64,000 nucleotides of DNA from Streptomyces qinzhouensis (lineage in GTDB: Bacteria; Actinomycetota; Actinomycetes; Streptomycetales; Streptomycetaceae): positions 5,208,001-5,272,000 of the forward strand of contig NZ_CP042266.1 of the NCBI RefSeq assembly GCF_007856155.1, read 5' to 3'. The notes under the pieces are model-generated. The model was given only the letters and a program-made list of their open reading frames with translations, did not search any database and was not told the origin of the DNA. Shown piece after piece: positions 7,323 through 27,523 of the stretch; within the stretch, counting starts at the first letter, position 1, and the number at the start of each line of letters is the position of its first letter. The translations under genes and the position numbers were made by a program.

Positions 7323-7928
7323 GTGTTCGACGTCGCCGTCTTCGGCTCCCTCTTTCTGACCCTCTTCGTGATCATGGATCCGCCGGGGGTCACCCCGATC
7401 TTCCTCGCCCTGACCTCCGGGCGGCCTGCCAAGGTGCAGCGCCGGATGGCCTGGCAGGCGGTGGCCGTGGCCTTCGGTGTGATCACCGTCTTCGGGCTGC
7501 TGGGTCAGCAGATCCTCGACTATCTCCATGTCTCCGTCCCCGCGCTGATGATCGCGGGCGGGCTGCTGCTGCTGTTGATCGCGCTGGACCTGCTCACCGG
7601 CAAGACCGACGAACCCAAGCAGACCAAGGATGTGAACGTCGCGCTGGTCCCGCTGGGCATGCCGCTGCTGGCCGGGCCCGGTGCGATCGTCTCGGTCATC
7701 CTGGCCGTCCAGGACGCCGACGGCGGCTCCCAGCAGATCGCCGTCTGGGCGGCCATCGTCGCCATGCATGTGGTGCTCTGGCTGACCATGCGCTATTCGC
7801 TGGTCATCATCCGGCTGATCAAGGACGGCGGTGTGGTGCTGGTGACCCGGCTCGCGGGCATGATGCTGTCGGCGATCGCCGTCCAGCAGATCATCAACGG
7901 CGTCACCCAGGTCGTCCAGGGCGCCTGA
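7323..7928 (+). CDS. MarC-family integral membrane protein
   Basis: 201 residues from GTG 7323. Six hydrophobic helices cover most of it (VAVFGSLFLTLFVIMDPPGV first, VAFGVITVFGLLG next). The MarC/UPF0056 signature around DPPGVTPIF in helix 1 and the central PLGMPLLAGPGAI are both present. The family was once linked to multiple antibiotic resistance in Escherichia coli, but its role is unproved. A strong bidirectional hairpin follows the stop. Confidence 0.92.
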   Translation: MFDVAVFGSLFLTLFVIMDPPGVTPIFLALTSGRPAKVQRRMAWQAVAVAFGVITVFGLLGQQILDYLHVSVPALMIAGGLLLLLIALDLLTGKTDEPKQTKDVNVALVPLGMPLLAGPGAIVSVILAVQDADGGSQQIAVWAAIVAMHVVLWLTMRYSLVIIRLIKDGGVVLVTRLAGMMLSAIAVQQIINGVTQVVQGA

Positions 7929-16552: not shown

Positions 16553-18289
16553 GTGGGACGACACAGCCGTAAGGGCCCCGCGCCCAAGTCCTCACCTCAT
16601 GAGGGGTCCTCGCCGGCTCCTGCGGATACCTCACCGACTTCTACGGGTACGGGTACGGGTACGGGGCGTGCTGCGGGATCCGGCCCGGTATCCCCGGCCA
16701 TCGGCCCGGACGGCGGCCCCGGCGCGCCCACGGGCGGCCGTCCCGCCGGCGGATACGACACCGGGGGACACCCCGTCGTGAGCGGGTACGACCCGGGTGC
16801 CCGTCCGGTAGCCGGTGGATACGGCAACGGCGGTCAGCACGGCGGTGGATACGGCAACGGTGACAACCCCGGCGGCGGGTACGGCACGGGCGGCCGTCCC
16901 GCTCCCGGCCATCACCACCCCGCCTACCCCCCGGGGGGGTACGGCACCGGCGGTTACGGCACCGGGGCGCACGACTCCGCCACCGCGCCCCCCGACGGGT
17001 TCACCGCGGCGCAGGGTCCGGCCGCGCCCGGCGTCCGGGGGCCCGCCGGGTACGGCACCGAGCACCCGCCCGCCGGGTACGGCACCGAGCACACGGCCAC
17101 CGGGTACGGCGTTCCGCAGGCCCGCGGCGGCCACCCCGAGCAGCACGAGCCCGGCGGCGGCTGGGGGGACGGCACCGGAACCGCCGTATCTCCGCACGCC
17201 CCGGCTCCCCCCGGGCAGCCGCAGCGAGCGTCAGGTCCGCAGACCCCGCCAGGGCCCGCCGCGGCCGGATCCCGGATACCGGGCCCGCGCCGGGAGTTCG
17301 TCGACGCCTTCGACCCCTCCGGGGCGACCGTGGACGGCACCGGCACCCGGAGCGGGCCCGATCAGGGCACAGGCGCCGGGGCCGTCCCCGGTGCCGAGCC
17401 GTCCGGCGACCGGCCGCAGGACCGGGACACCGCCCCCGGCGCCGTACCGGAGCAGCGAACTCCGCTCAGCGGCGGCAAGAGCCGTGCCGTCACCGGCATA
17501 GCCGCCGCGGCCGTGACGACCGTGCTGGCGTTCATCGTCGCCGGGCAGGTCGCCACCGAGAACGAGCGCCGCGAGGAGACCGGGACCACGGGCGACGAGC
17601 GCGCCGATGACACCGGACCGGCCTCGCGCTCCGACAGCCGCGGTACCCCGCCGCAGCCCGCCGTACGCGACACCAAGCCTCAGGGCCCCACGTACGAACA
17701 GCTGATGGCGACCCGCTTCCCCATCGACCGGGAGTTCACCGGCGACGGCACCTTCCAGGCCGTCCCCGGTCTCGACAAGGCGCCCGGCCAGGGGCGGAAG
17801 ATCCGCTATCGGGTGGATGTCGAGAAGGGCCTGAAGATGGACGGCCTGCTGTTCGCCACGGCCGTCCAGCGGACCCTCAACGACCGGCGCAGCTGGGCCG
17901 GGAACGGCGAGATGGCCTTCGAGCGGATCTCGTCGGGCGACCCCGCGTTCGTGATCACCCTGGCCAGCCCCGGCACCACCGACGTGTGGTGCGCCAAGTC
18001 CGGGCTCAATACGTCCATCGACAAGGTGAGCTGCGACTCCGCCTCGACGAGCCGGGTCATGATCAACGCCTACCGCTGGGGACTCGGCTCGGACACCTAC
18101 GGACCGGGCGCGATGTTCGCCTATCGGCAGATGCTCATCAATCACGAGGTCGGCCACCGGCTCGGTCACGGCCATGTGCGGTGCGAGACCGAAGGCGCCC
18201 TGGCACCCGTGATGCAGCAGCAGACCAAATCCCTGAACATCCGCGGGATCCGCTGCAAGCCCAACCCCTGGGTTCACCCGAAGGGCTGA
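16553..18289 (+). CDS. DUF3152 protein: membrane-anchored, metzincin-like
   Basis: 578 residues from GTG 16553. Residues 1-300 are a disordered Gly/Pro/Tyr/Thr-rich cytosolic region with repeated GYGTG, GYGNG and YGTEH units. One membrane helix follows (VTGIAAAAVTTVLAFIVAG, about 315-335). The C-terminal 190 residues are the DUF3152 domain, outside the cell. It contains HEVGHRLGHGH at 531-541, which fits HExxHxxGxxH, and PVMQQQ with Met 554, which could be a Met-turn. Four Cys could form disulfides. The family has no proven activity. Mycobacterial Rv3207c is the equivalent. Confidence 0.88.
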   Translation: MGRHSRKGPAPKSSPHEGSSPAPADTSPTSTGTGTGTGRAAGSGPVSPAIGPDGGPGAPTGGRPAGGYDTGGHPVVSGYDPGARPVAGGYGNGGQHGGGYGNGDNPGGGYGTGGRPAPGHHHPAYPPGGYGTGGYGTGAHDSATAPPDGFTAAQGPAAPGVRGPAGYGTEHPPAGYGTEHTATGYGVPQARGGHPEQHEPGGGWGDGTGTAVSPHAPAPPGQPQRASGPQTPPGPAAAGSRIPGPRREFVDAFDPSGATVDGTGTRSGPDQGTGAGAVPGAEPSGDRPQDRDTAPGAVPEQRTPLSGGKSRAVTGIAAAAVTTVLAFIVAGQVATENERREETGTTGDERADDTGPASRSDSRGTPPQPAVRDTKPQGPTYEQLMATRFPIDREFTGDGTFQAVPGLDKAPGQGRKIRYRVDVEKGLKMDGLLFATAVQRTLNDRRSWAGNGEMAFERISSGDPAFVITLASPGTTDVWCAKSGLNTSIDKVSCDSASTSRVMINAYRWGLGSDTYGPGAMFAYRQMLINHEVGHRLGHGHVRCETEGALAPVMQQQTKSLNIRGIRCKPNPWVHPKG

Positions 18290-18415
18290 ATCCGCGCGCA
18301 GTCCACCCCGTCAAGGCGTGGCCTGTGCTTCGCTGATCGTAACAGAGGGCGTTCATAGCGCGACAGAACGCTATCGCGCCAGGAAAGTTACGGGTTTTCA
18401 CCCCTTCCGGTGGCG

Positions 18416-18435
18416 CGGCGGACAACCGTCCGCCG
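18416..18435 (+). terminator. 8-bp hairpin downstream of the DUF3152 gene
   Basis: CGGCGGAC, loop AACC, GTCCGCCG, about 125 nt after the DUF3152 stop and 90 nt before the glycosyltransferase. It could be a weak terminator or part of the next leader. Confidence 0.35.
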
Positions 18436-18523
18436 TACCCCCGTCGCACCGGCTTACGGTCATTCCGCCGCGTGCCGCCGATTTCAACGGCGGTGGTCGA
18501 CAAGGGAGATCGGGGGTGCGTTC

Positions 18524-20755
18524 ATGCGGATCGGACTACTCACGGACGGTGGCTATCCGTATGCGTCGGGTGGCACGGCGGGCTGGTGCGACCGGCTCGT
18601 GCGCGGGCTCGCACAGCACGAGTTCGATGTCTACGCGGGCCGCGCCGGGTATCCGGCGCGCGCCGGTGGAGCCTTCGGCGCGGGGTGCCCGGAGTGCGCC
18701 GCGGCCGCCTGCGCCCGGTGCTCCGCCCCGTCCCCTTCCCCGGTGGCGCTGCCGCCGCAGGTGCGGACGGTCCGGACCGCGCCCGTGGGCCCGGTGGACC
18801 GCGCCGGGGGCGCGACGCTGGGCCGCCGGGGGCGCCGGCGCTTCCTCGAACATTTCACGGACCTGGTGACGGCCGTCCGGGGCGCGGGCGCCGCCGACTC
18901 CACGACGGGCTCGGCCGGTTCAGGCTGGTCAGCCGGTTCGGCTGGTTCGGGCGGTTCGGGCGGCTCCGTCGAGGCGGCCGGATTCGCCGAGGGGCTGTAC
19001 GGGCTCGCCGCACTCGCCCGTGAACACGGCGGGCTGGCCGCCGCGCTGCGCTCCGAACCCGCCCTGCGCACCGTGGAATCCGTCTGCCGCGCCCCCGGCG
19101 CACACCGGAGCGTGCATACCGCCGCCGTCCCCGACTACCTGGCCTTCGCGGGGGAGTTGGAGCGGACGCTGCGCCCCCTCTCCTTCGACTGGTACGGCGA
19201 CGACGCGCTCGGCTCCGTGGACCTCTGCCATGCCGTCTCCGGCGGAGTCACGGCGCTGCCCGGTCTGTTGGCCAAACGCTTCTTCGGAGTTCCGCTGCTG
19301 GTCACGGAGTACGGAGTCGATCTGCGCGCCCACTATCTCGCCGCCGGGTACCCCGGGGGGACGGACGGCTCGGCGGCAGCCGCCGACGCCGGCCGGGGCG
19401 CGCCGGGCAGATCCGGGACCCCCGGCGCCCGCGGCGGACACGGGGCGCCCGGGCCGCTCGCGCCGGGCGCCTCCGGCCCGGACGGGGCTCCCCTTCCTCC
19501 GCTGAGCGCGCCGGTGCGCGCCCTGCTCGCGGCCTTCCGGCGCGCGCTCGCCGCCGAGGTGTACGCCCAGGCGTCCCTCATCACCCCGGGCGACGCCCGG
19601 ATCCGCCGCTGGCAGCGGAAGTGCGGCGCCGATCCGGCGAAGCTGCGCACGGTCCACCCGGGGGTGGACGCCGACCGGTACACCGCCGTCGGCGAGTCCG
19701 CCGAGCCGGGTGACCCGTACACCCTCGTCTGGGTCGGCCGGACCGAACCGGGGAAGGATCTGGTGGGGCTGTTGCACGCCTTCGCCGAGGTCCACAGCCG
19801 CGAACCCCGCGCCCGGCTCAGGCTGTTCACCCGGCCCGCGGCGGGGGAGGAGGAGATCACCTACCTCGCCCACTGCCGGTCGCTCGCCGCCCATCTCTTC
19901 CCCGACGATGCCACCGACATCCCCCCGGCGGACGACCGCCCGGTCTCCTTCGAACCGCTCGGGGGCGCCGGTGGCCGGGCGACCGCCGAGGCCTGTGCGA
20001 GCGGCGCCGTCACGGTCTTCGCCAGTGCCGTCGAGGGCTTTCCGCACACCCTTGTCGAGGCGATGCTCTGCGGCCGGGCCACCGTGTCGACGGACGCGGG
20101 CGCGGTCGTCGAGGTCATCGGCGGCACCGGGCTCGTCGTACCGCCGCGCAGACCGCGGGCCCTCGCCGAAGCCTGCCTCGCGCTCGTCGGCGACCCCGCG
20201 CGGGCCGCCCGGCTCGGCGCCGCCGCGCGCTCCCGCGCGCTCGAACTCTTCACCGCCGACCGGAACACGGCCGCGTTCCGCGCGCTGTATCTGGAGGTGA
20301 TCGCGCGCTCTCCGGTCCACCGTGACCCGGTCGGCGCGTACGGCGAACCGCTGCCGTTCGCCCGTCCGGCGGAGGCTCTCGTACCGGTGGCCTGGGGCGG
20401 TGGCGCGGGGGGCTCGGCGCCGGGCCTCTCGACCGCCGAGGGCCCGTGGCCCGGCCCGGTGGGCACGGAAGTCCCCTGGCCGGGGCGGGTGGGCCGTCAG
20501 GGGCTGGGCCCGGCGGCCGGTGGGAGTGCGTTCCCGGGGCCGTTGACGGCTGAGGGGCCGTGGTCCGGCCCGGTGACGGCCGGGGGTTTGCGGCCGGGGC
20601 CGGTGGGCAGTCAGGGAACCCGGCCGGACGTGGCGGCCGTCGCGAGCCCGTGGCCGGGTCCGACGGGGATCGGGGGGCCGCGGCCGGGTCCGGCGGCCAC
20701 CGGAAGTTCGAGGTCCGGCCCGCCGGCCTCCGGGGCGAAGGAGGCCCGCGCATGA
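18524..20755 (+). CDS. PelF-like (DUF3492) GT4 glycosyltransferase
   Basis: 743 residues from ATG 18524 (MRIGLLTDGGYPYASGGTAG). The N-terminal part, with the early GGYPYASGG loop and a long insert, matches the DUF3492 domain found in PelF. The C-terminal GT4 domain has WVGRTEPGKDLVGLLHAF and the E-x7-E signature around VEGFPHTLVEAML. GT4 retaining enzymes transfer sugars from UDP or GDP donors in the cytosol. The last 130 residues are an odd Gly/Pro/Trp repeat tail (GPWPGPVG-type units). The stop overlaps the next ATG (ATGA), so translation is coupled. Confidence 0.85.
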   Translation: MRIGLLTDGGYPYASGGTAGWCDRLVRGLAQHEFDVYAGRAGYPARAGGAFGAGCPECAAAACARCSAPSPSPVALPPQVRTVRTAPVGPVDRAGGATLGRRGRRRFLEHFTDLVTAVRGAGAADSTTGSAGSGWSAGSAGSGGSGGSVEAAGFAEGLYGLAALAREHGGLAAALRSEPALRTVESVCRAPGAHRSVHTAAVPDYLAFAGELERTLRPLSFDWYGDDALGSVDLCHAVSGGVTALPGLLAKRFFGVPLLVTEYGVDLRAHYLAAGYPGGTDGSAAAADAGRGAPGRSGTPGARGGHGAPGPLAPGASGPDGAPLPPLSAPVRALLAAFRRALAAEVYAQASLITPGDARIRRWQRKCGADPAKLRTVHPGVDADRYTAVGESAEPGDPYTLVWVGRTEPGKDLVGLLHAFAEVHSREPRARLRLFTRPAAGEEEITYLAHCRSLAAHLFPDDATDIPPADDRPVSFEPLGGAGGRATAEACASGAVTVFASAVEGFPHTLVEAMLCGRATVSTDAGAVVEVIGGTGLVVPPRRPRALAEACLALVGDPARAARLGAAARSRALELFTADRNTAAFRALYLEVIARSPVHRDPVGAYGEPLPFARPAEALVPVAWGGGAGGSAPGLSTAEGPWPGPVGTEVPWPGRVGRQGLGPAAGGSAFPGPLTAEGPWSGPVTAGGLRPGPVGSQGTRPDVAAVASPWPGPTGIGGPRPGPAATGSSRSGPPASGAKEARA

Positions 20756-22029
20756 CCGCGCCCGGGACCACGGGACGCGGCGGAACCCCGGAAGCCTCCG
20801 GTGTCACCGCGCGCCAGGTCAAGGACCGCTCCGCCGCGGACGCGCCCCGACCGCCCGTCAGCCACGGTGGCTGGGACGCCCGTTCCCATGCCCTGCTCGG
20901 CCCCCGCGGCGGGACCGGGCCCGAACCCGCCGCCGGACTCGGACCCGCCGCCGGACCCGACCCCCGGGCGGGCACGGCCACCCGCGGCTCCGCCGACCCC
21001 GTCAAGGCACTGCTCCGGCGTCACAAGGACCTCTGCGAACGAGCCGTCGACCCGCTGGAGATCGCCGCCGGGCTGGAAGCCCACGGCGTGACCGACCGGA
21101 TCGCCGCCCGCTTCCGGCACCGGGACGTCTTCTCGCTCGCCGAGGAGCTGTACGCCCGGGTGCCCGCGAACACCGCCGACCCCGCACCCCGGCCCGGCCC
21201 GCGGTACCGCCCCGCCGGTGGCGCCGCCCGGGCGTTGCTGCCCGGCACGGCCGCCGCGTTCGCCGCCACCGGCTGGGCCCTCCTCGACGGCCCCGCCCGG
21301 ACGACGGCGGCCCTGCTCGGCACGGCCGCCGTCACCACCGCCGTCCTGTTCTGCCTGCGGCAGGGCCCCCTCCGGATCCGGGGCCGGCGGCCGGTCCGTA
21401 CCGCCAGGGCCGGGGTCGTGGGGACCGTCGTACTGATCGGCTTCGCCGCCTGCGGTCCGGGACTGACGGACCAGGTCACCGCAGGCGGACCCGGGGGGCC
21501 GCTGCCGTTCACCCCCGGCCCGCCGGTCGCCCTGGCGGTCTCCGTCGCCCCCGCGGCCTGGTGTGCCGGACTCCTGGCCGCCGGGGCCCGGCGCAGGCTC
21601 GGCGACAGCCGGCGGCTCGACGACTTCGCAGCCGGAATGCGGCCACTGCTGCTGGGCGTCGCCGGGCTCTACACCGTCACCCTGGCAGCGGTGACCGGGG
21701 CGACCGGGCTCCTACTGCGCGACGGCAGCGCGCCCGCCACGGCCGTCACCCTGGGCCTGCTGCTCTTCACCGCCCGGCTGCTGGTGATCCACGGCTTCCC
21801 GGAAGCGGCGGTCGCCGGGCTCGGCGCGGCCTGCGCCGGGCAGGCACTCGTCCCCCTCCTGCCGCTCGCCGGACGACTTACCGGACTCGGCTTCCTGGCC
21901 CGGCCGGTCGACGCGGCGACGGCGGCCTGGGGCGCGGGGGCGATCGGAGCCCTGGTCTGCGGCCTGGTGGCAGCCGTACTGCTGATCCATACCACCGCCG
22001 TACTGTCCCGGGCCTCGGCCCACACCTGA
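20752..22029 (+). CDS. polytopic membrane protein of the glycosyltransferase cluster
   Basis: 425 residues, coupled to the glycosyltransferase by ATGA. The first 150 are cytosolic and Ala/Gly-rich, with a helical patch (VKALLRRHKDLCERAVDPLE, then FSLAEELYARVP). About eight to ten hydrophobic helices follow (for example LLPGTAAAFAATGWALL and VVGTVVLIGFAACGPGL). No family recognised with confidence. Position and topology would suit a polysaccharide exporter or polymerase partner, in the place PelG holds in Pel systems, but I see no PelG-specific motif. Confidence 0.8.
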   Translation: MTAPGTTGRGGTPEASGVTARQVKDRSAADAPRPPVSHGGWDARSHALLGPRGGTGPEPAAGLGPAAGPDPRAGTATRGSADPVKALLRRHKDLCERAVDPLEIAAGLEAHGVTDRIAARFRHRDVFSLAEELYARVPANTADPAPRPGPRYRPAGGAARALLPGTAAAFAATGWALLDGPARTTAALLGTAAVTTAVLFCLRQGPLRIRGRRPVRTARAGVVGTVVLIGFAACGPGLTDQVTAGGPGGPLPFTPGPPVALAVSVAPAAWCAGLLAAGARRRLGDSRRLDDFAAGMRPLLLGVAGLYTVTLAAVTGATGLLLRDGSAPATAVTLGLLLFTARLLVIHGFPEAAVAGLGAACAGQALVPLLPLAGRLTGLGFLARPVDAATAAWGAGAIGALVCGLVAAVLLIHTTAVLSRASAHT

Positions 22030-22042
22030 CGCCGGCGGCTCC

Positions 22043-22069
22043 GGCGGGCGGACGAACGCTTCGCCCGCC
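22043..22069 (+). terminator. 8-bp GC hairpin after the membrane protein
   Basis: GGCGGGCG (22043-22050) pairs with CGCCCGCC (22062-22069) around an 11-nt loop, 13 nt after the stop. It may be an attenuating terminator within the cluster. Confidence 0.4.
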
Positions 22070-22273
22070 CGACCGCCGGTCCATCCGACCGCCTGTCCAC
22101 CCGGCCGTCCGCATTCCGGACCAAGGGCCGCCCCGGCCGCCGCCGGCCCGGAACCGCGGCCGGCGCGGCAGCAGCCCGCACCACCCCGATCGACCGCTGT
22201 GTGTGCCGTACCACCGGCTCCGCCGGATCAGCCGTCGCCGCCACGAGCGCGACACCGAAGGAGAAACGCGAAC

Positions 22274-22327
22274 ATGATCCGCCAATCCCCAGCCCGGACC
22301 CGTCGTCAGGAAGGGGGCGCGCGATGA
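22274..22327 (+). CDS. 17-codon leader ORF coupled to the epimerase
   Basis: ATG 22274 encodes MIRQSPARTRRQEGGAR and stops with TGA 22325-22327, which overlaps the epimerase ATG (ATGA at 22324). A strong AAGGAGA site lies 10 nt before this ATG, whereas the epimerase start has only a weak GGGGGC context. The peptide is probably there to deliver ribosomes to the epimerase start. The product has five Arg and no recognisable domain. Confidence 0.45.
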   Translation: MIRQSPARTRRQEGGAR

Positions 22328-23430
22328 GGGTGCTGCTGCTCGGAGCCAACGGCTTCCTCGGCCGCTTCGTCGCCGACCGGCTGCTCGCCGACCCGGCCGT
22401 CCATCTGACCACGCTCGGCCGCGGCGACGACGCCGATGTGCGCTTCGACCTCGCGGGCGGCAGCCCCGGCGCGCTCACCCGCTTTCTGACCGCCGTCCAT
22501 CCAGGCGTCGTCATCAACTGCGCCGGAGCCACCCGCGGCGGCGCCCGCGAGCTGACCCGACACAACACGGTCGCCGTGGCCACCGTCTGCGAGGCACTGC
22601 GCCGCAGCGGCTGCGGGGCCCGGCTGGTGCAGGTGGGCTGCTCGTCCGAGTACGGCCCTTCGCAGCAGGGTTCGTCGACCGCCGAGGACGCGATCCCGCG
22701 GCCCGGCGGCCCGTACGGGGTCAGCAAACTGGCCGCCACGGAGCTCGTTCTCGGATCCGGCCTCGACGCCGTCGTCCTGAGGGTCTTCTCGCCGGTCGGG
22801 CCCGGTACCCCGGCCGGATCCCCGCTCGGACGGCTCGCCGAGGCGATGCGGCGGGCGATGCAGTCCGGCGACGGCGAGCTGAAGCTCAGCGGGCTCGGGG
22901 TGCAGCGGGACTTCGTCGATGTACGGGACGTGGCCCGGGCGGTCCACGCCGCCTCCCTCTCCGCGGCGCAGGGCGTGGTGAACATCGGCACCGGGCGGGC
23001 GGTACGGCTGCGGGACGCGGCAGCGGTCCTCGCCAGGGTCGCGGGGTACGCGGGTGCCCTCCATGAACTGGACACCCCGCCCGGGCGGCCCGGCCCCGGG
23101 GCGCTCGGCGGCCCCGGACCCCTGGGGCACGGCGGCCACTCGGGCCCGGTCGGCCACAGCAGCCACAGTGGTCATGGGGGGCACAGCGGGCCGGTGGGCC
23201 ACCCCGGCCACGGAGGGCACGGCACGCTCGCCGGTCACAGCATCGGAGCGCCGCGCTCCGAATCCGTACTGGAGCAGCTCGCCGCCACCCCCGTCCCCTA
23301 CCCCGACGGCTGCGGCAACTGGCAGCAGGCGGATATCCGCACCGCCCGCGACCGGCTCGGCTGGCGGCCCCGGATCAACCTGGAGGAATCGCTCGCCGAT
23401 ATTTGGATGGAGGCGGCATGCCGCATCTGA
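22324..23430 (+). CDS. NAD-dependent sugar epimerase/dehydratase with His/Gly-rich insertion
   Basis: 368 residues from ATG 22324. It is an extended SDR: GANGFLG nucleotide motif at residues 7-13, SSEYG, and catalytic Tyr131-x-x-x-Lys135 in YGVSK. This matches UDP-sugar 4-epimerases and 4,6-dehydratases. Between residues about 268 and 306 lies a Gly/His/Ser insertion with ten His in short GHGGHSG units, not part of the family. The gene overlaps the next one by 13 nt. Within the cluster it would supply an activated sugar (UDP-GalNAc is the guess). Substrate unproven. Confidence 0.87.
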   Translation: MRVLLLGANGFLGRFVADRLLADPAVHLTTLGRGDDADVRFDLAGGSPGALTRFLTAVHPGVVINCAGATRGGARELTRHNTVAVATVCEALRRSGCGARLVQVGCSSEYGPSQQGSSTAEDAIPRPGGPYGVSKLAATELVLGSGLDAVVLRVFSPVGPGTPAGSPLGRLAEAMRRAMQSGDGELKLSGLGVQRDFVDVRDVARAVHAASLSAAQGVVNIGTGRAVRLRDAAAVLARVAGYAGALHELDTPPGRPGPGALGGPGPLGHGGHSGPVGHSSHSGHGGHSGPVGHPGHGGHGTLAGHSIGAPRSESVLEQLAATPVPYPDGCGNWQQADIRTARDRLGWRPRINLEESLADIWMEAACRI

Positions 23431-24419
23431 CCACCGGCGGGGGAGCCGCCCGGTGCACCGGGCGGCGCGGACCGGAACCGGGCCGGGGCCTCGCGGAATT
23501 CCCGGGGGACGGGCGCGGGTGGGAGCCGCGTCCGGGCGGCGGCGCGGCGAACGGGCCGTGGGGCCGGCTGCGCATCGGGGTGCCCGGATACGCCCATCCG
23601 CTGCTCGCCCCGGCCGAGTGGGCGGAGCTGACCCGGCCCGGTACCCCGCTGGAGTGGGTCGTCCTCACGGTGGCCAATGGGCCGGGCGACCGCCCGGACC
23701 CGCACTGTCTGGCCGCCGCCGGGAAGCTCGTCAACGCCGGGGTGCGGGTCCTGGGCCGGGTCGATCTGGCCGGGGGCGCCCGGCCCTTCGGCGAACTGGT
23801 CGCGGACGCGGACCGCTATGCGCAGTGGTACCGGGTCGGCGGGTTCCTGCTGGACCGCTGTCCGGCCGACCGGGCCGGTCTGGCGGCGGTACGGCGGGCG
23901 GCGGCGGCCCTGCGGACGGTCGCCGAGAACGCCGGGGTCCGGGCGGCCGCGAGCGGCTGCGGACGGCGGGGGACCGGGAGCCCGGGCGCGGCCGGGCTCC
24001 CGGGCGGATATGTCGTCCTCGGCCACGGCGGACATCCGCACCCCGGCTACGCGGAGCTCGCCGACCAGCTGATCACCTTCTCCGGGGCCTGGGCGGACTA
24101 CCGCTGGTCGCAGGTGGCGGAGTGGACGGCCGGCCATCCGCCGGAGCGGTTCGCCCACTTCGTCCACGGGGTGCCGCGCACCCATCTGGAAGAGGCCGCC
24201 CGGATCGCCCGCTGGCAGGGCGCGGGAACGGTCTTCTTCACCGACCGGCCGGGCGGCGGCCCGGCGGGCTTCGGCACCACGCCCCCGGCGGCAGCCGGCG
24301 CCTCCCGAACCGCGGACGGAGTCTCCGGAGCCCTGGGCGGACATTCCGCCGCATTCGAGAGCCTGCCCGGCTACTGGGACGAATTCGTCTCGCGGATCGG
24401 ACCGGGTGTCTCGGAATGA
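23418..24419 (+). CDS. Spherulin-4/GH135-like protein
   Basis: 333 residues from ATG 23418, overlapping the epimerase end. After a 50-residue Gly-rich lead, a TIM-barrel-like domain follows the spherulation-specific family 4 plan: IGVPGYAHPLLAP, VVLTVANGPGDRP, VRVLGRVDLAGGA, GFLLDRCP, YVVLGHGGHPHPGY. GH135 members such as fungal Sph3 cut alpha-1,4-linked N-acetylgalactosamine polymers. Here the usual acidic pair of the GIFfDE strand reads LDR, so the second acid is lost. No signal peptide is visible, which is unusual for an enzyme of extracellular glycans. Confidence 0.75.
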   Translation: MPHLTTGGGAARCTGRRGPEPGRGLAEFPGDGRGWEPRPGGGAANGPWGRLRIGVPGYAHPLLAPAEWAELTRPGTPLEWVVLTVANGPGDRPDPHCLAAAGKLVNAGVRVLGRVDLAGGARPFGELVADADRYAQWYRVGGFLLDRCPADRAGLAAVRRAAAALRTVAENAGVRAAASGCGRRGTGSPGAAGLPGGYVVLGHGGHPHPGYAELADQLITFSGAWADYRWSQVAEWTAGHPPERFAHFVHGVPRTHLEEAARIARWQGAGTVFFTDRPGGGPAGFGTTPPAAAGASRTADGVSGALGGHSAAFESLPGYWDEFVSRIGPGVSE

Positions 24420-24483
24420 GAAGGCGCGTGGCAGTGTTGACGGGAGAACAACCGTATTGACTTACCCATGCAACGGAGTCCCC

Positions 24484-25662
24484 GTGTCGCTGCCACCCCT
24501 GGTCGAGCCCGCCGCAGAGCTCACCGTCGACGAGGTCCGCCGGTACTCCCGCCACCTGATCATCCCCGACGTCGGGATGGACGGGCAGAAGCGGCTGAAG
24601 AACGCCAAGGTGCTCTGTGTGGGCGCGGGCGGCCTCGGTTCCCCCGCGCTGATGTATCTGGCCGCGGCCGGGGTCGGGACGCTCGGCATCGTCGAGTTCG
24701 ACGAGGTCGACGAGTCGAACCTCCAGCGTCAGATCATCCACAGCCAGTCCGACATCGGCCGTTCCAAGGCCGAGTCCGCGAAGGACTCGGTCCTCGGGAT
24801 CAACCCGTACGTCAAGGTGGTCCTTCACCAGGAGCGGCTCGAAGCCGACAACGTGATGGACATCTTCAGTCAGTACGACCTCATCGTCGACGGCACGGAC
24901 AACTTCGCCACGCGCTATCTCGTCAACGACGCCTGTGTGCTGCTCAACAAGCCGTATGTCTGGGGCTCCATCTACCGCTTCGACGGCCAGGCCTCCGTCT
25001 TCTGGTCCGAGTACGGCCCCTGCTACCGCTGCCTCTACCCCGAGCCCCCGCCGCCGGGCATGGTCCCGAGCTGCGCCGAGGGCGGGGTGCTCGGAGTGCT
25101 CTGCGCCTCCATCGGCTCCATCCAGGTCACCGAGGCCATCAAGGTCCTCGCCGGTGTCGGTGAGCCGATGGTCGGCCGGTTGATGATCTACGACGCCCTG
25201 GAGATGCAGTACCGCCAGGTCAAGATCCGCAAGGACCCGAACTGCGCGGTCTGCAGCGACCACCCGACCGTCACCGAGCTGATCGACTACGAGGCCTTCT
25301 GCGGCGTGGTGTCCGAGGAGGCCCAGGAGGCGGCCGCCGGTTCGACGATCACTCCCAAGCAGCTCAAGGAGTGGATCGACGAGGGCGAGAACATCGAGAT
25401 CATCGATGTCCGTGAGGTCAATGAGTACGAGATCGTCTCCATCCCCGGCGCCAAGCTGATTCCCAAGAACGAGTTCCTGATGGGGACGGCGCTCGAAGGA
25501 CTCCCCCAGGACAAGAAGATCGTCTTGCACTGCAAGACGGGTGTCCGCAGTGCGGAAGTCCTGGCGGTACTCAAGTCGGCGGGCTTCGCCGACGCCGTCC
25601 ATGTCGGCGGCGGTGTCATCGGGTGGGTGCACCAGATCGAACCGCACAAGCCGGTCTACTGA
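24484..25662 (+). CDS. moeZ: adenylyltransferase/sulfurtransferase MoeZ
   Basis: 392 residues from GTG 24484, with GGAG 5 nt upstream. An E1-like MoeB/ThiF domain (GAGGLGS at 48-54, zinc CxxC pairs at 180/183 and 254/257) is fused to a C-terminal rhodanese domain with active-site Cys350 in CKTGVRS. MoeZ adenylates and then thiolates the C-terminal glycine of sulfur-carrier proteins for molybdopterin, thioamino acid and other thiolation pathways. The mycobacterial equivalent (Rv3206c) is in the same gene order. moaE lies 33 kb away in this window; no sulfur-carrier gene is present here. Confidence 0.95.
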   Translation: MSLPPLVEPAAELTVDEVRRYSRHLIIPDVGMDGQKRLKNAKVLCVGAGGLGSPALMYLAAAGVGTLGIVEFDEVDESNLQRQIIHSQSDIGRSKAESAKDSVLGINPYVKVVLHQERLEADNVMDIFSQYDLIVDGTDNFATRYLVNDACVLLNKPYVWGSIYRFDGQASVFWSEYGPCYRCLYPEPPPPGMVPSCAEGGVLGVLCASIGSIQVTEAIKVLAGVGEPMVGRLMIYDALEMQYRQVKIRKDPNCAVCSDHPTVTELIDYEAFCGVVSEEAQEAAAGSTITPKQLKEWIDEGENIEIIDVREVNEYEIVSIPGAKLIPKNEFLMGTALEGLPQDKKIVLHCKTGVRSAEVLAVLKSAGFADAVHVGGGVIGWVHQIEPHKPVY

Positions 25663-25773
25663 CCGAGGCGTCCGGCCGGCCCGTGCGGTCCGCCGGTACG
25701 GCCCGTGCGGTTCGCTCGGCCCGGTCGGTAGTGGCCGGGCGGTGCGGCCGAGTGATGTGAATGAGCTGGTCAG

Positions 25774-25811
25774 GGCCCCGGGGTCGCGTCGGCCGACGTG
25801 ACCCCGGGGCC
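25774..25811. terminator. 12-bp hairpin between moeZ and protease genes
   Basis: GGCCCCGGGGTC at 25774-25785 pairs perfectly with 25800-25811; the 14-nt centre is itself nearly palindromic. It lies between convergent genes and should act on both. Confidence 0.75.
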
Positions 25812-25879
25812 GTTCCGTACCGGCCCGTGTTTCCGTAGGGGCGCACCCGGGCCCGGGCGGCCGTGGCGGCCGGGGGCGG

Positions 25880-27523
25880 TCAGGAGGAGCAGACGGTTCC
25901 GCTCCTGGGGACCTTGCCCTTCAGCAGATAGTCGTCCACGAGCCGTGTCGCGCACTTCGAGAAGCCGTACGAGCCATGGTTCTCGCCCTTGCTGGTGACC
26001 AGCACTCCTACCCCGGTGCCCAGGCCGTTCGCCATCCGCGCGGCGCCCTCCACCGGCGTCGCCGGGTCGCCCGTGGTGCCGACGACCAGGATCGGCGCCG
26101 CCCCCTTCGCCGACACCGGCGGCTTCTCCCACGCCCCGTCGACCGGCCAGTCGGCGCACCAGCCCGCGACGTCCCAGGCGAGATACGGTCCGAAGACCGG
26201 GGAGGCCGCGGTGAAGTCGGCCAGATGGCGCGAGGTCACGTCCGCGGCCGTCGGCCGGGACGCGGCATCGGCGCACGATATCGCCCGCTGGGCGTGGTCC
26301 TGGGTCGAGTAGCGGCCCTTCTCGTCCCGGCCGGTGTACATATCGGCGAGGGCGAGGAGTTCGGAGCCGTTGCCCTTCTCGGCCGCCTTCAGGGCATCCG
26401 TCAGATAGGGCCAGTACTCCTCCGAGTACAACGACTGGATGATGCCGGTCCGGGCCATGTGCTCGGTCAGCTCGCGGCCGTCCCCGGCGGCTATCGGCCG
26501 GGCGTCGAGCCGCTGGAGCAGCCTCACCGTCCGGGCCGTGCCCTCGGCGGCGCCGATATCGCGGCTCTTGTAGTAGTTCTCCAGGGCCCGCTGGAAGCCG
26601 ACGGCCTGATTGCGTGTGCCGCGGGCGAGGTCGGCCGTCGGATCGACGACGCCGTCCATGGCCAGCCGCCCGACCTTCGCCGGGAAGAGGTGGGCGTACA
26701 CCCCGCCCAGCTCCGTCCCGTACGAGAAGCCGAGGTAGTGCAGTTTCGCGTCGCCGAGGACCTGGCGCATCAGGTCCATGTCGCGGGCGGTGTTCGCCGT
26801 GCCGACATGGGGGAGCACCTTTCCGGACCGCCGGGCGCAGTCCGCGCCGAAGGCGGCCGACGCGGCCATGAACGCCCGCTGTTCGGCGGGGGTGTCCGGA
26901 GTGCTGTCGACCCGGTGGGACGCGGCGATGGCCTTGTCGTCCCGGCAGACGACACCGGAGCTCTGGGCGACTCCCCGGGGGTCGAAGCTGACCAGGTCGT
27001 AGGTCCGGCCGAGCTTGTCGATGACATCGTCACCGCTCGGCAGGGCGGCGACACCGGAACCGCCGGGTCCGCCGAAGTTGAACAGCAGGGAGCCGATGCG
27101 CTTTCCGGAGTCCTTCGCCACGGTCCGGATCAGGGCGATGCCCAGCGTCTCCCCGCCCGGTTTCGTGTAGTCCAGGGGCGCCTTCAGCGTCGCGCACTGC
27201 CAGCGGGCGCCCGGCTTCTCCGCGTACATCCCGTCGGCCTTGACCGGCGCCTTGCACGCCGACCAGTCGAGCTTCTGCCCGGTCAGAGCGGCGGGCAGCG
27301 CCGCGGTGGTCACGGGCACCGGGCCCGGATCCGGGGCCTTGGCGGACGGGGACGCCGCGCTCGGAGCCGTACTCCCGCTTCCGCCGTCGGCACCGGCTCC
27401 GCCGCGCCCGCCGCCTCCGCCACCGTCCTTCGTACAGCCGAAGGCCGCTCCCGCCAGCAGCAGCGCCGCCGTCGCCAGGGCCGTCGTCCCGCGTTTGCCG
27501 TGCCTGGTGTGCCCGATGCGCAT
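25880..27523 (-). CDS. secreted tripeptidyl-aminopeptidase-like lipoprotein (SlpD/SlpE type)
   Basis: 547 residues from ATG 27523. The N-terminus is a lipoprotein signal (LATAALLLAGAAFGC, Cys30, imperfect lipobox) followed by a Gly linker. The hydrolase domain has FNFGGPGGSG (oxyanion), nucleophile GFSYGTELGG, acid VVGTTGDPATPVEG and His in GENHGSYG. This is the Tap/SlpD/SlpE family of mycelium-associated Streptomyces proteases that remove N-terminal peptides. A G-rich tract serves as ribosome-binding site. It lies downstream of a paralogue on the same strand. Confidence 0.9.
   Translation of the reverse strand: MRIGHTRHGKRGTTALATAALLLAGAAFGCTKDGGGGGGRGGAGADGGSGSTAPSAASPSAKAPDPGPVPVTTAALPAALTGQKLDWSACKAPVKADGMYAEKPGARWQCATLKAPLDYTKPGGETLGIALIRTVAKDSGKRIGSLLFNFGGPGGSGVAALPSGDDVIDKLGRTYDLVSFDPRGVAQSSGVVCRDDKAIAASHRVDSTPDTPAEQRAFMAASAAFGADCARRSGKVLPHVGTANTARDMDLMRQVLGDAKLHYLGFSYGTELGGVYAHLFPAKVGRLAMDGVVDPTADLARGTRNQAVGFQRALENYYKSRDIGAAEGTARTVRLLQRLDARPIAAGDGRELTEHMARTGIIQSLYSEEYWPYLTDALKAAEKGNGSELLALADMYTGRDEKGRYSTQDHAQRAISCADAASRPTAADVTSRHLADFTAASPVFGPYLAWDVAGWCADWPVDGAWEKPPVSAKGAAPILVVGTTGDPATPVEGAARMANGLGTGVGVLVTSKGENHGSYGFSKCATRLVDDYLLKGKVPRSGTVCSS

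Follow-up and report, generated by a model that had tools for sequence, protein, structure and literature searches.

Which function can be assigned to a four-gene cluster lying between a DUF3152 gene and moeZ in Streptomyces qinzhouensis is the question raised by the stretch of DNA analyzed here (the window: 64,000 nucleotides of contig NZ_CP042266.1, positions 5,208,001 to 5,272,000). The four co-directional genes span positions 18524-24419 in the order GT4-MP-SDR-SPH, followed by moeZ, and encode a glycosyltransferase family 4 (GT4) protein with a DUF3492 domain, a polytopic membrane protein (MP), an extended short-chain dehydrogenase/reductase (SDR), and a Spherulin4-domain protein (SPH). 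A preliminary description had proposed a galactosamine-type polysaccharide system. Comparison with related loci demonstrates that all four genes share common ancestry with Agd3-type operons, and the reading favored here, for which the chances appear about even, is that they are a streamlined descendant of these actinobacterial (galactosaminogalactan- or Pel-like) operons, fixed across most Streptomyces, with non-hydrolytic accessory subunits and an altered glycan.

Kinship with Agd3-type operons

The genes of the cluster and its two flanks are as follows.

16553-18289, plus strand: DUF3152 protein (PF11350, 180.1 bits); upstream flank, a conserved neighbor outside the system
18524-20755, plus strand: GT4/DUF3492 PelF-like protein, 743 amino acids (aa); DUF3492 at 70.2 bits (cut-off 23.3) and GT4 domains
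20752-22029, plus strand: polytopic MP, 425 aa
22324-23430, plus strand: extended SDR, 368 aa; Epimerase PF01370 at 124.6 bits
23418-24419, plus strand: Spherulin4-domain protein, 333 aa; PF12138 at 65.9 bits (cut-off 30.2)
24406-25662, plus strand: moeZ (NCBIfam MoeZ, 752.4 bits); downstream flank

These domain scores confirm the four-gene make-up described earlier, and the flanking scores confirm the position between DUF3152 and moeZ. MP is coupled to GT4 by an ATGA at 20752-20755 in which the stop and start codons overlap, again as described. The preferred start codons (22324 for the SDR and 23418 for Spherulin4) slightly revise the gene limits. No Rfam match was found in 17500-26000, a scan of 18200-24600 for sigma-70-type sites only revealed no promoter, and the single terminator-like site in the same interval is as expected by chance.

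In the portion of Bamford et al. 2020 (PMC7229062) drawn on here, bacterial Agd3 operons combine a glycosyltransferase with a polytopic protein; GH114 is often present as well, and some Actinobacteria add Spherulin-4. Galactosaminogalactan/Pel-like polymers are suggested as the products of these operons. Searches with DUF3492 and MP profiles detected second loci in Streptomyces and three other genera. The Agd3-type set comprises 16 loci (L172-L187), whose gene content, determined by tblastn, includes GT4 in all 16, MP in 14, Spherulin4 in 13, a nucleotidyltransferase in 8, and GH114 in 7; extra GH114 matches in L180 and L181 overlap Spherulin4 and were taken as artefacts of over-long frames. 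The CE18 (Agd3-type deacetylase) gene is present in full in 14/16 loci, with only a 46-aa piece in L181 and none in L187 (a 4.3-kb contig). CE18 proteins are approximately 700-1000 aa long, and a family profile (A3) built from 13 of the 14, with L174 left out, matched only 6nwz (Agd3) in PDB (E 2.9e-14); a single-sequence PDB search with a CE18 protein gave no match. Among the parent loci tried, GT4 reached 172.6 bits with the PelF model, above its cut-off, and GH114 and NTP-transferase were above theirs as well. Longer Agd3-type loci hold a second SDR, and the one tried was LegB-like (453.3 bits, just under the cut-off of 475).

Many Streptomyces carry such operons (L172-L183; G214, G208, G216, G173, G067, G095, G087), some genomes two of them, and the content in L172-L183 is CE18, a PelF-like glycosyltransferase and MP, often GH135, and in some cases SDRs, a nucleotidyltransferase or GH114. 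A shorter version (L175, L177-L179, L182) adjoins, by eye, genes for leucyl aminopeptidase and a lipoyl-domain acyltransferase. L181 (G095, ~7715-7852) has GT4, MP, SDRs, Spherulin4, and the short CE18 piece; here the deacetylase may have been lost a second time and more recently.

Hereafter, the four-gene cluster between DUF3152 and moeZ, without Agd3, is referred to as the core. The two MP groups, core and Agd3-type, are homologous over 324 columns (hhalign probability 99.5%, E 3.4e-22). In the GT4 tree (18/80 core rows sampled), the core rows lie on one side of a branch (support 100/100) and join nine glycosyltransferases of Streptomyces Agd3-type loci (99/97); other actinobacterial Agd3-type glycosyltransferases come next, and three Pel-locus PelF sequences fall outside (100/100), the tree being midpoint-rooted, with these three compositionally odd PelF rows and two long branches. 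The grouping with PelF that had been suggested for this glycosyltransferase was thus not recovered, an outcome that the preliminary description had itself listed as speaking against its proposal. Similarly, in the SDR tree (16/83) the core rows form a single branch (100/100) inside a 24-row group with Agd3-type SDRs (100/99), the Agd3-type L184 being placed, weakly supported, with the core, and the window SDR is 45-49% identical to the SDR of eight Agd3-type loci. The SPH tree (14/79) covers only two groups, core and Agd3-type.

Taken together, the core resembles Agd3 operons in its homologous GT4 and MP, in the SDR and Spherulin4 of the longer versions, and in identical gene order. It differs from them in the absence of CE18, GH114, a nucleotidyltransferase, and the second SDR, none of which is present in the cluster, in altered residues of Spherulin4, SDR, and GT4, and in its fixed site between DUF3152 and moeZ. 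CE18 genes were detected in 41/81 Streptomyces sampled, and the same query in the same run found none in the window genome; a search of this genome for GH114 gave no match either, and its only Spherulin4 gene found is the one described here. The preliminary description had known of no Streptomyces system of this make-up, which is partly mistaken. Agd3 operons were in fact outlined in the part of Bamford et al. 2020 (PMC7229062) considered, and the fuller version exists in many Streptomyces, although not in this genome.

Altered active sites and the membrane protein

A hydrolase, an epimerase, and a PelF-type glycosyltransferase had been proposed as the activities shared with Pel and galactosaminogalactan pathways, and none of the three proteins bears this out. 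A Spherulin4 profile (A1) matched 5c5g (E 6.7e-08), and mapping to 5c5g/5d6t placed the Sph3 nucleophile Asp at D146 (23853-23855) and the acid/base Glu at S222 (24081-24083). Among 80 core sequences, the residue found in place of the Glu is S in 52, R in 17, A in 8, and H, T, and C in one each, and never E; Asp is retained at its own site in 61/80. Since the acid/base Glu is absent, core Spherulin4 is probably not a GH135 hydrolase and probably lacks the chemistry of that family. An active GH135 enzyme was rejected on this count, as Glu occurs in 0/80 core sequences whereas the Agd3-type relatives keep both Asp and Glu (13/13). The Sph3 residues aligned as an Asp-Glu pair, which we take to be D166/E167, are numbered 166 and 167 when counted from E222 as anchor; the E167 site is uninformative between the groups because neither has Glu there. 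In the part of PMC12054363 drawn on, fungal Sph3 is a membrane-bound hydrolase whose catalytic Asp/Glu pair is printed as Asp196/Glu222; unlike this enzyme, core Spherulin4 has lost the Glu.

Judged from N-terminal hydropathy alone, no clear signal peptide is apparent in either core or Agd3-type Spherulin4: the best 17-residue mean within the first 60 residues was at most 1.27 in the core and 0.46-1.26 in five Agd3-type Spherulin4 proteins, compared with 1.49-1.90 in three CE18 proteins. An AlphaFold2 (AF2) model of the window protein had a pLDDT of 35. The Agd3-type GH135 relatives in which Asp and Glu are kept (L175:11155-11781, L176:13711-14493, L185:7094-7786, and ten more) are possibly cytosolic alpha-GalNAc hydrolases, unlike fungal Sph3, as far as their residues and N-termini suggest. 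In public records, some orthologs of 23418-24419 are called 'phage tail protein', which looks like propagated misannotation.

In the SDR, the YxxxK and GxxGxxG motifs are kept in the window, and Tyr and Lys are present in 83/83 core sequences. The catalytic Ser/Thr site, four residues before the Tyr of an SSxxYG-like motif and aligned with the Ser of 2pk3 and 6wjb, is Cys106 (22639-22641); Cys occupies it in 83/83 core sequences and Ser in 8/8 SDRs of Agd3-type loci. Among solved structures, the closest match is a GDP-6-deoxy-4-keto-hexose reductase. The galE model gave 30.2 bits, far below its cut-off of 262.3, and a UDP-GalNAc epimerase was rejected by family model. The window SDR also carries a Gly/His-rich insert (~23085-23240) that is not present in the L032 and L099 orthologs read.

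The window GT4 scored 76.5 bits with the NCBIfam PelF model, under the cut-off of 100, and two core orthologs tried passed it (113.4 and 107.3 bits). Its EX7E residues E504 (codon at 20033) and E512 and its K411 are retained, as they are in the core rows, where Glu occurs in 77/78 at both positions and Lys in 76/78 (Arg in 2), these counts including one row (L049) that is broken or misframed at EX7E. In the N-terminal half, the His of a TEHG motif, which we equate with the His that would be catalytic elsewhere in the GT4 family (PimA H118), is invariant in the 16 comparison rows (13 Agd3-type and three Pel-locus) and is Tyr263 (19310-19312) in the window; core rows have Tyr in 65/78 and His in 13/78. 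Further along TEHG...RER, the core retains the first Arg of RER in 78/78, the Glu of RER in 1/78, and its second Arg in 2/78 (the window residues at the His, Glu, and second-Arg sites being Tyr, Ala, and His), and the GGVS residues, invariant or nearly so in the comparison rows, are altered as well. The N-terminal half of core GT4 has been remodelled, and the donor-side residues have been kept. The window protein ends in a Gly/Pro-rich repetitive tail (20400-20752), and the L032 and L099 orthologs have different tails.

No Pfam or NCBIfam match was obtained for MP, in which a strongly conserved N-terminal motif (approximately residues 85-138) precedes the first predicted membrane helix. MOP flippases (MATE, MurJ, WzxE) filled ranks 1-11 of a structural comparison with the predicted fold, in alignments of 6-11% identity; at the level of a predicted model, MP appears to resemble these flippases. 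MOP proteins have 12 or more helices. MP differs in having fewer than 12 predicted helices and in its extra N-terminal motif. PelG (PF16933) gave no match in the window genome and matched in 6/296 genomes of the phylum, three of them over the cut-off; an hhalign comparison with three PelG sequences returned a probability of 0.3%, and the identification of MP as PelG was rejected.

A Gram-positive version of the pel operon appears in the part of PMC7112168 considered. Pel operons likewise place a DUF3492+GT4 protein beside an MP of predicted MOP-like fold; unlike them, the core has a GT4 lying outside the three Pel-locus PelF sequences, the window genome lacks a PelG match, and no PelA, PelD or PelE gene was seen in the cluster, PelD, the component for c-di-GMP control, having been looked for in the cluster and not genome-wide. 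With the fungal galactosaminogalactan cluster (Uge3, Gtb3, Agd3, Sph3, Ega3), the core has in common a sugar SDR and a protein with a Spherulin4 domain. In the comparisons made here, the core lacks defining features of PelF and pel operons, of GH135, and of the 4-epimerases. Of the galactosamine-type system proposed earlier, the kinship to such operons stands, the nearest being Agd3-type and not Pel; the proposed activities are not supported.

Conservation and insertion in Streptomyces

Using an MP alignment of 38 relatives as query, the best 80 of at least 387 relatives were taken as named core loci, titled Streptomyces in 78 cases, Kitasatospora in one, and 'Actinobacteria bacterium' in one. 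The order GT4-MP-SDR-SPH-moeZ recurs in these loci and the full four-gene set is present in 75/80, in agreement with the co-occurrence that had been expected. In L040, L094, and L105, GT4 is not visible because the contig ends there, 35-294 bases from the MP start. L049 (3662-3715) and L111 (12502-12660) have Spherulin4 deleted in place, with its last codons remaining and GT4, MP, and SDR kept, and in L189 the Spherulin4 gene was not found. The coupling is also conserved: an ATG or GTG start overlaps the GT4 stop as in the window in 68/77 orthologous loci, and Spherulin4 starts 13 nucleotides inside the SDR end in 76/78. At the genus level, a Spherulin4 match was present in 190/199 genomes (183/199 at E 1e-30), a count that may include Agd3-type copies and weak matches, and an MP match was present in 103/104 genomes, which may include paralogues, versus 0/15 genomes from other families of the order.

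Among 22 DUF3152 loci outside Streptomyces, DUF3152 directly adjoins moeZ, without the cluster, in seven (all six loci of one other family, f6, and L227), and the remaining 15 have no moeZ within the ~1.5 kb examined. This adjacency, which had been anticipated, together with the wide retention of the cluster in Streptomyces, suggests a genus-level insertion that stayed, and the streptomycete insertion proposed earlier does look lineage-specific in position. In some Streptomyces loci (L206, L208, L210, and others), a gap of several kb, at most 6544 bases, separates DUF3152 and GT4.

Purifying selection acts on each of the four genes. Median omega, estimated roughly by counting on 12% of the pairs, drawn at random (262-401 pairs for each gene), was 0.11 for SDR, 0.32 for both GT4 and SPH, and 0.50 for MP, compared with 0.14 for moeZ and 0.40 for DUF3152 as flanking controls. 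Selection maintains the altered proteins and constrains the SDR as tightly as moeZ. A decaying remnant of a formerly complete operon, to which the active-site losses and the loss of Spherulin4 in L049, L111, and L189 might point, was rejected as highly improbable, given medians of 0.11-0.50 within the range of the flanking genes, conserved coupled starts, and wide retention in the genus.

Explanations and significance

If the cluster is a streamlined Agd3-type operon, the MOP-like MP would offer its conserved N-terminal motif as the docking site for GT4, and the pair might make or pass on a glycan that differs from the parent's expected product, a deacetylated GalN polymer. The SDR could supply or sense a nucleotide sugar. 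The Spherulin4 barrel, which some species have lost, may be a regulatory or chain-control subunit that binds the product and leaves it uncut. At most, the cluster would work as the synthase part of a system of the Agd3/Pel type.

Three other explanations deserve attention. It is conceivable, if unlikely, that the GT4-MP pair makes an unrelated glycan, such as a polymer of the wall or spore coat; the Cys-type SDR would then be active and produce a nucleotide sugar of its own, and Spherulin4 would act as a lectin. The kept donor-side GT4 residues beside changed N-terminal motifs, the strongest constraint of the four genes on the SDR (close to that on moeZ), and 6-deoxy-hexose reductases as its best solved matches are consistent with this; however, the activity of the Cys variant would be purely putative, and the cluster has no second nucleotide-sugar gene. 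Rather unlikely is an operon turned non-catalytic, in which altered GT4, SDR, and GH135 relatives on a flippase-like MP would form a genus-wide sensor or scaffold for nucleotide sugars or envelope glycans in hyphal growth. Decidedly doubtful is the working galactosamine-type exopolysaccharide pathway, with a PelF-like polymerase, a UDP-GalNAc epimerase, and an alpha-GalNAc hydrolase. Its domain make-up, its kinship to Agd3 operons, and the Lys and EX7E of GT4 would fit, but core Spherulin4 lacks the acid/base Glu in 80/80 sequences and the Asp in 19/80 and has no clear signal peptide, the SDR has Cys in 83/83 with the galE model far under cut-off, and neither a deacetylase nor GH114 was found in the genome searches.

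The cluster is a gene set widely conserved in a heavily used genus for which no description was found: the open-licence PMC literature yielded no account of this Agd3-less variant, for DUF3492 only work on Fusobacterium, and nothing linking Spherulin-4 names with S. coelicolor, where SCO5178 is only named as moeB in the part of PMC4340878 considered. Domain names alone are an unsafe guide here to GH135, 'epimerase' or PelF activity, and a new function is probable for the cluster. In many Streptomyces, the same families exist both with and without intact active sites, a natural before-and-after pair that makes both the galactosamine polymer of the full operons and the role of conserved, altered carbohydrate enzymes testable.

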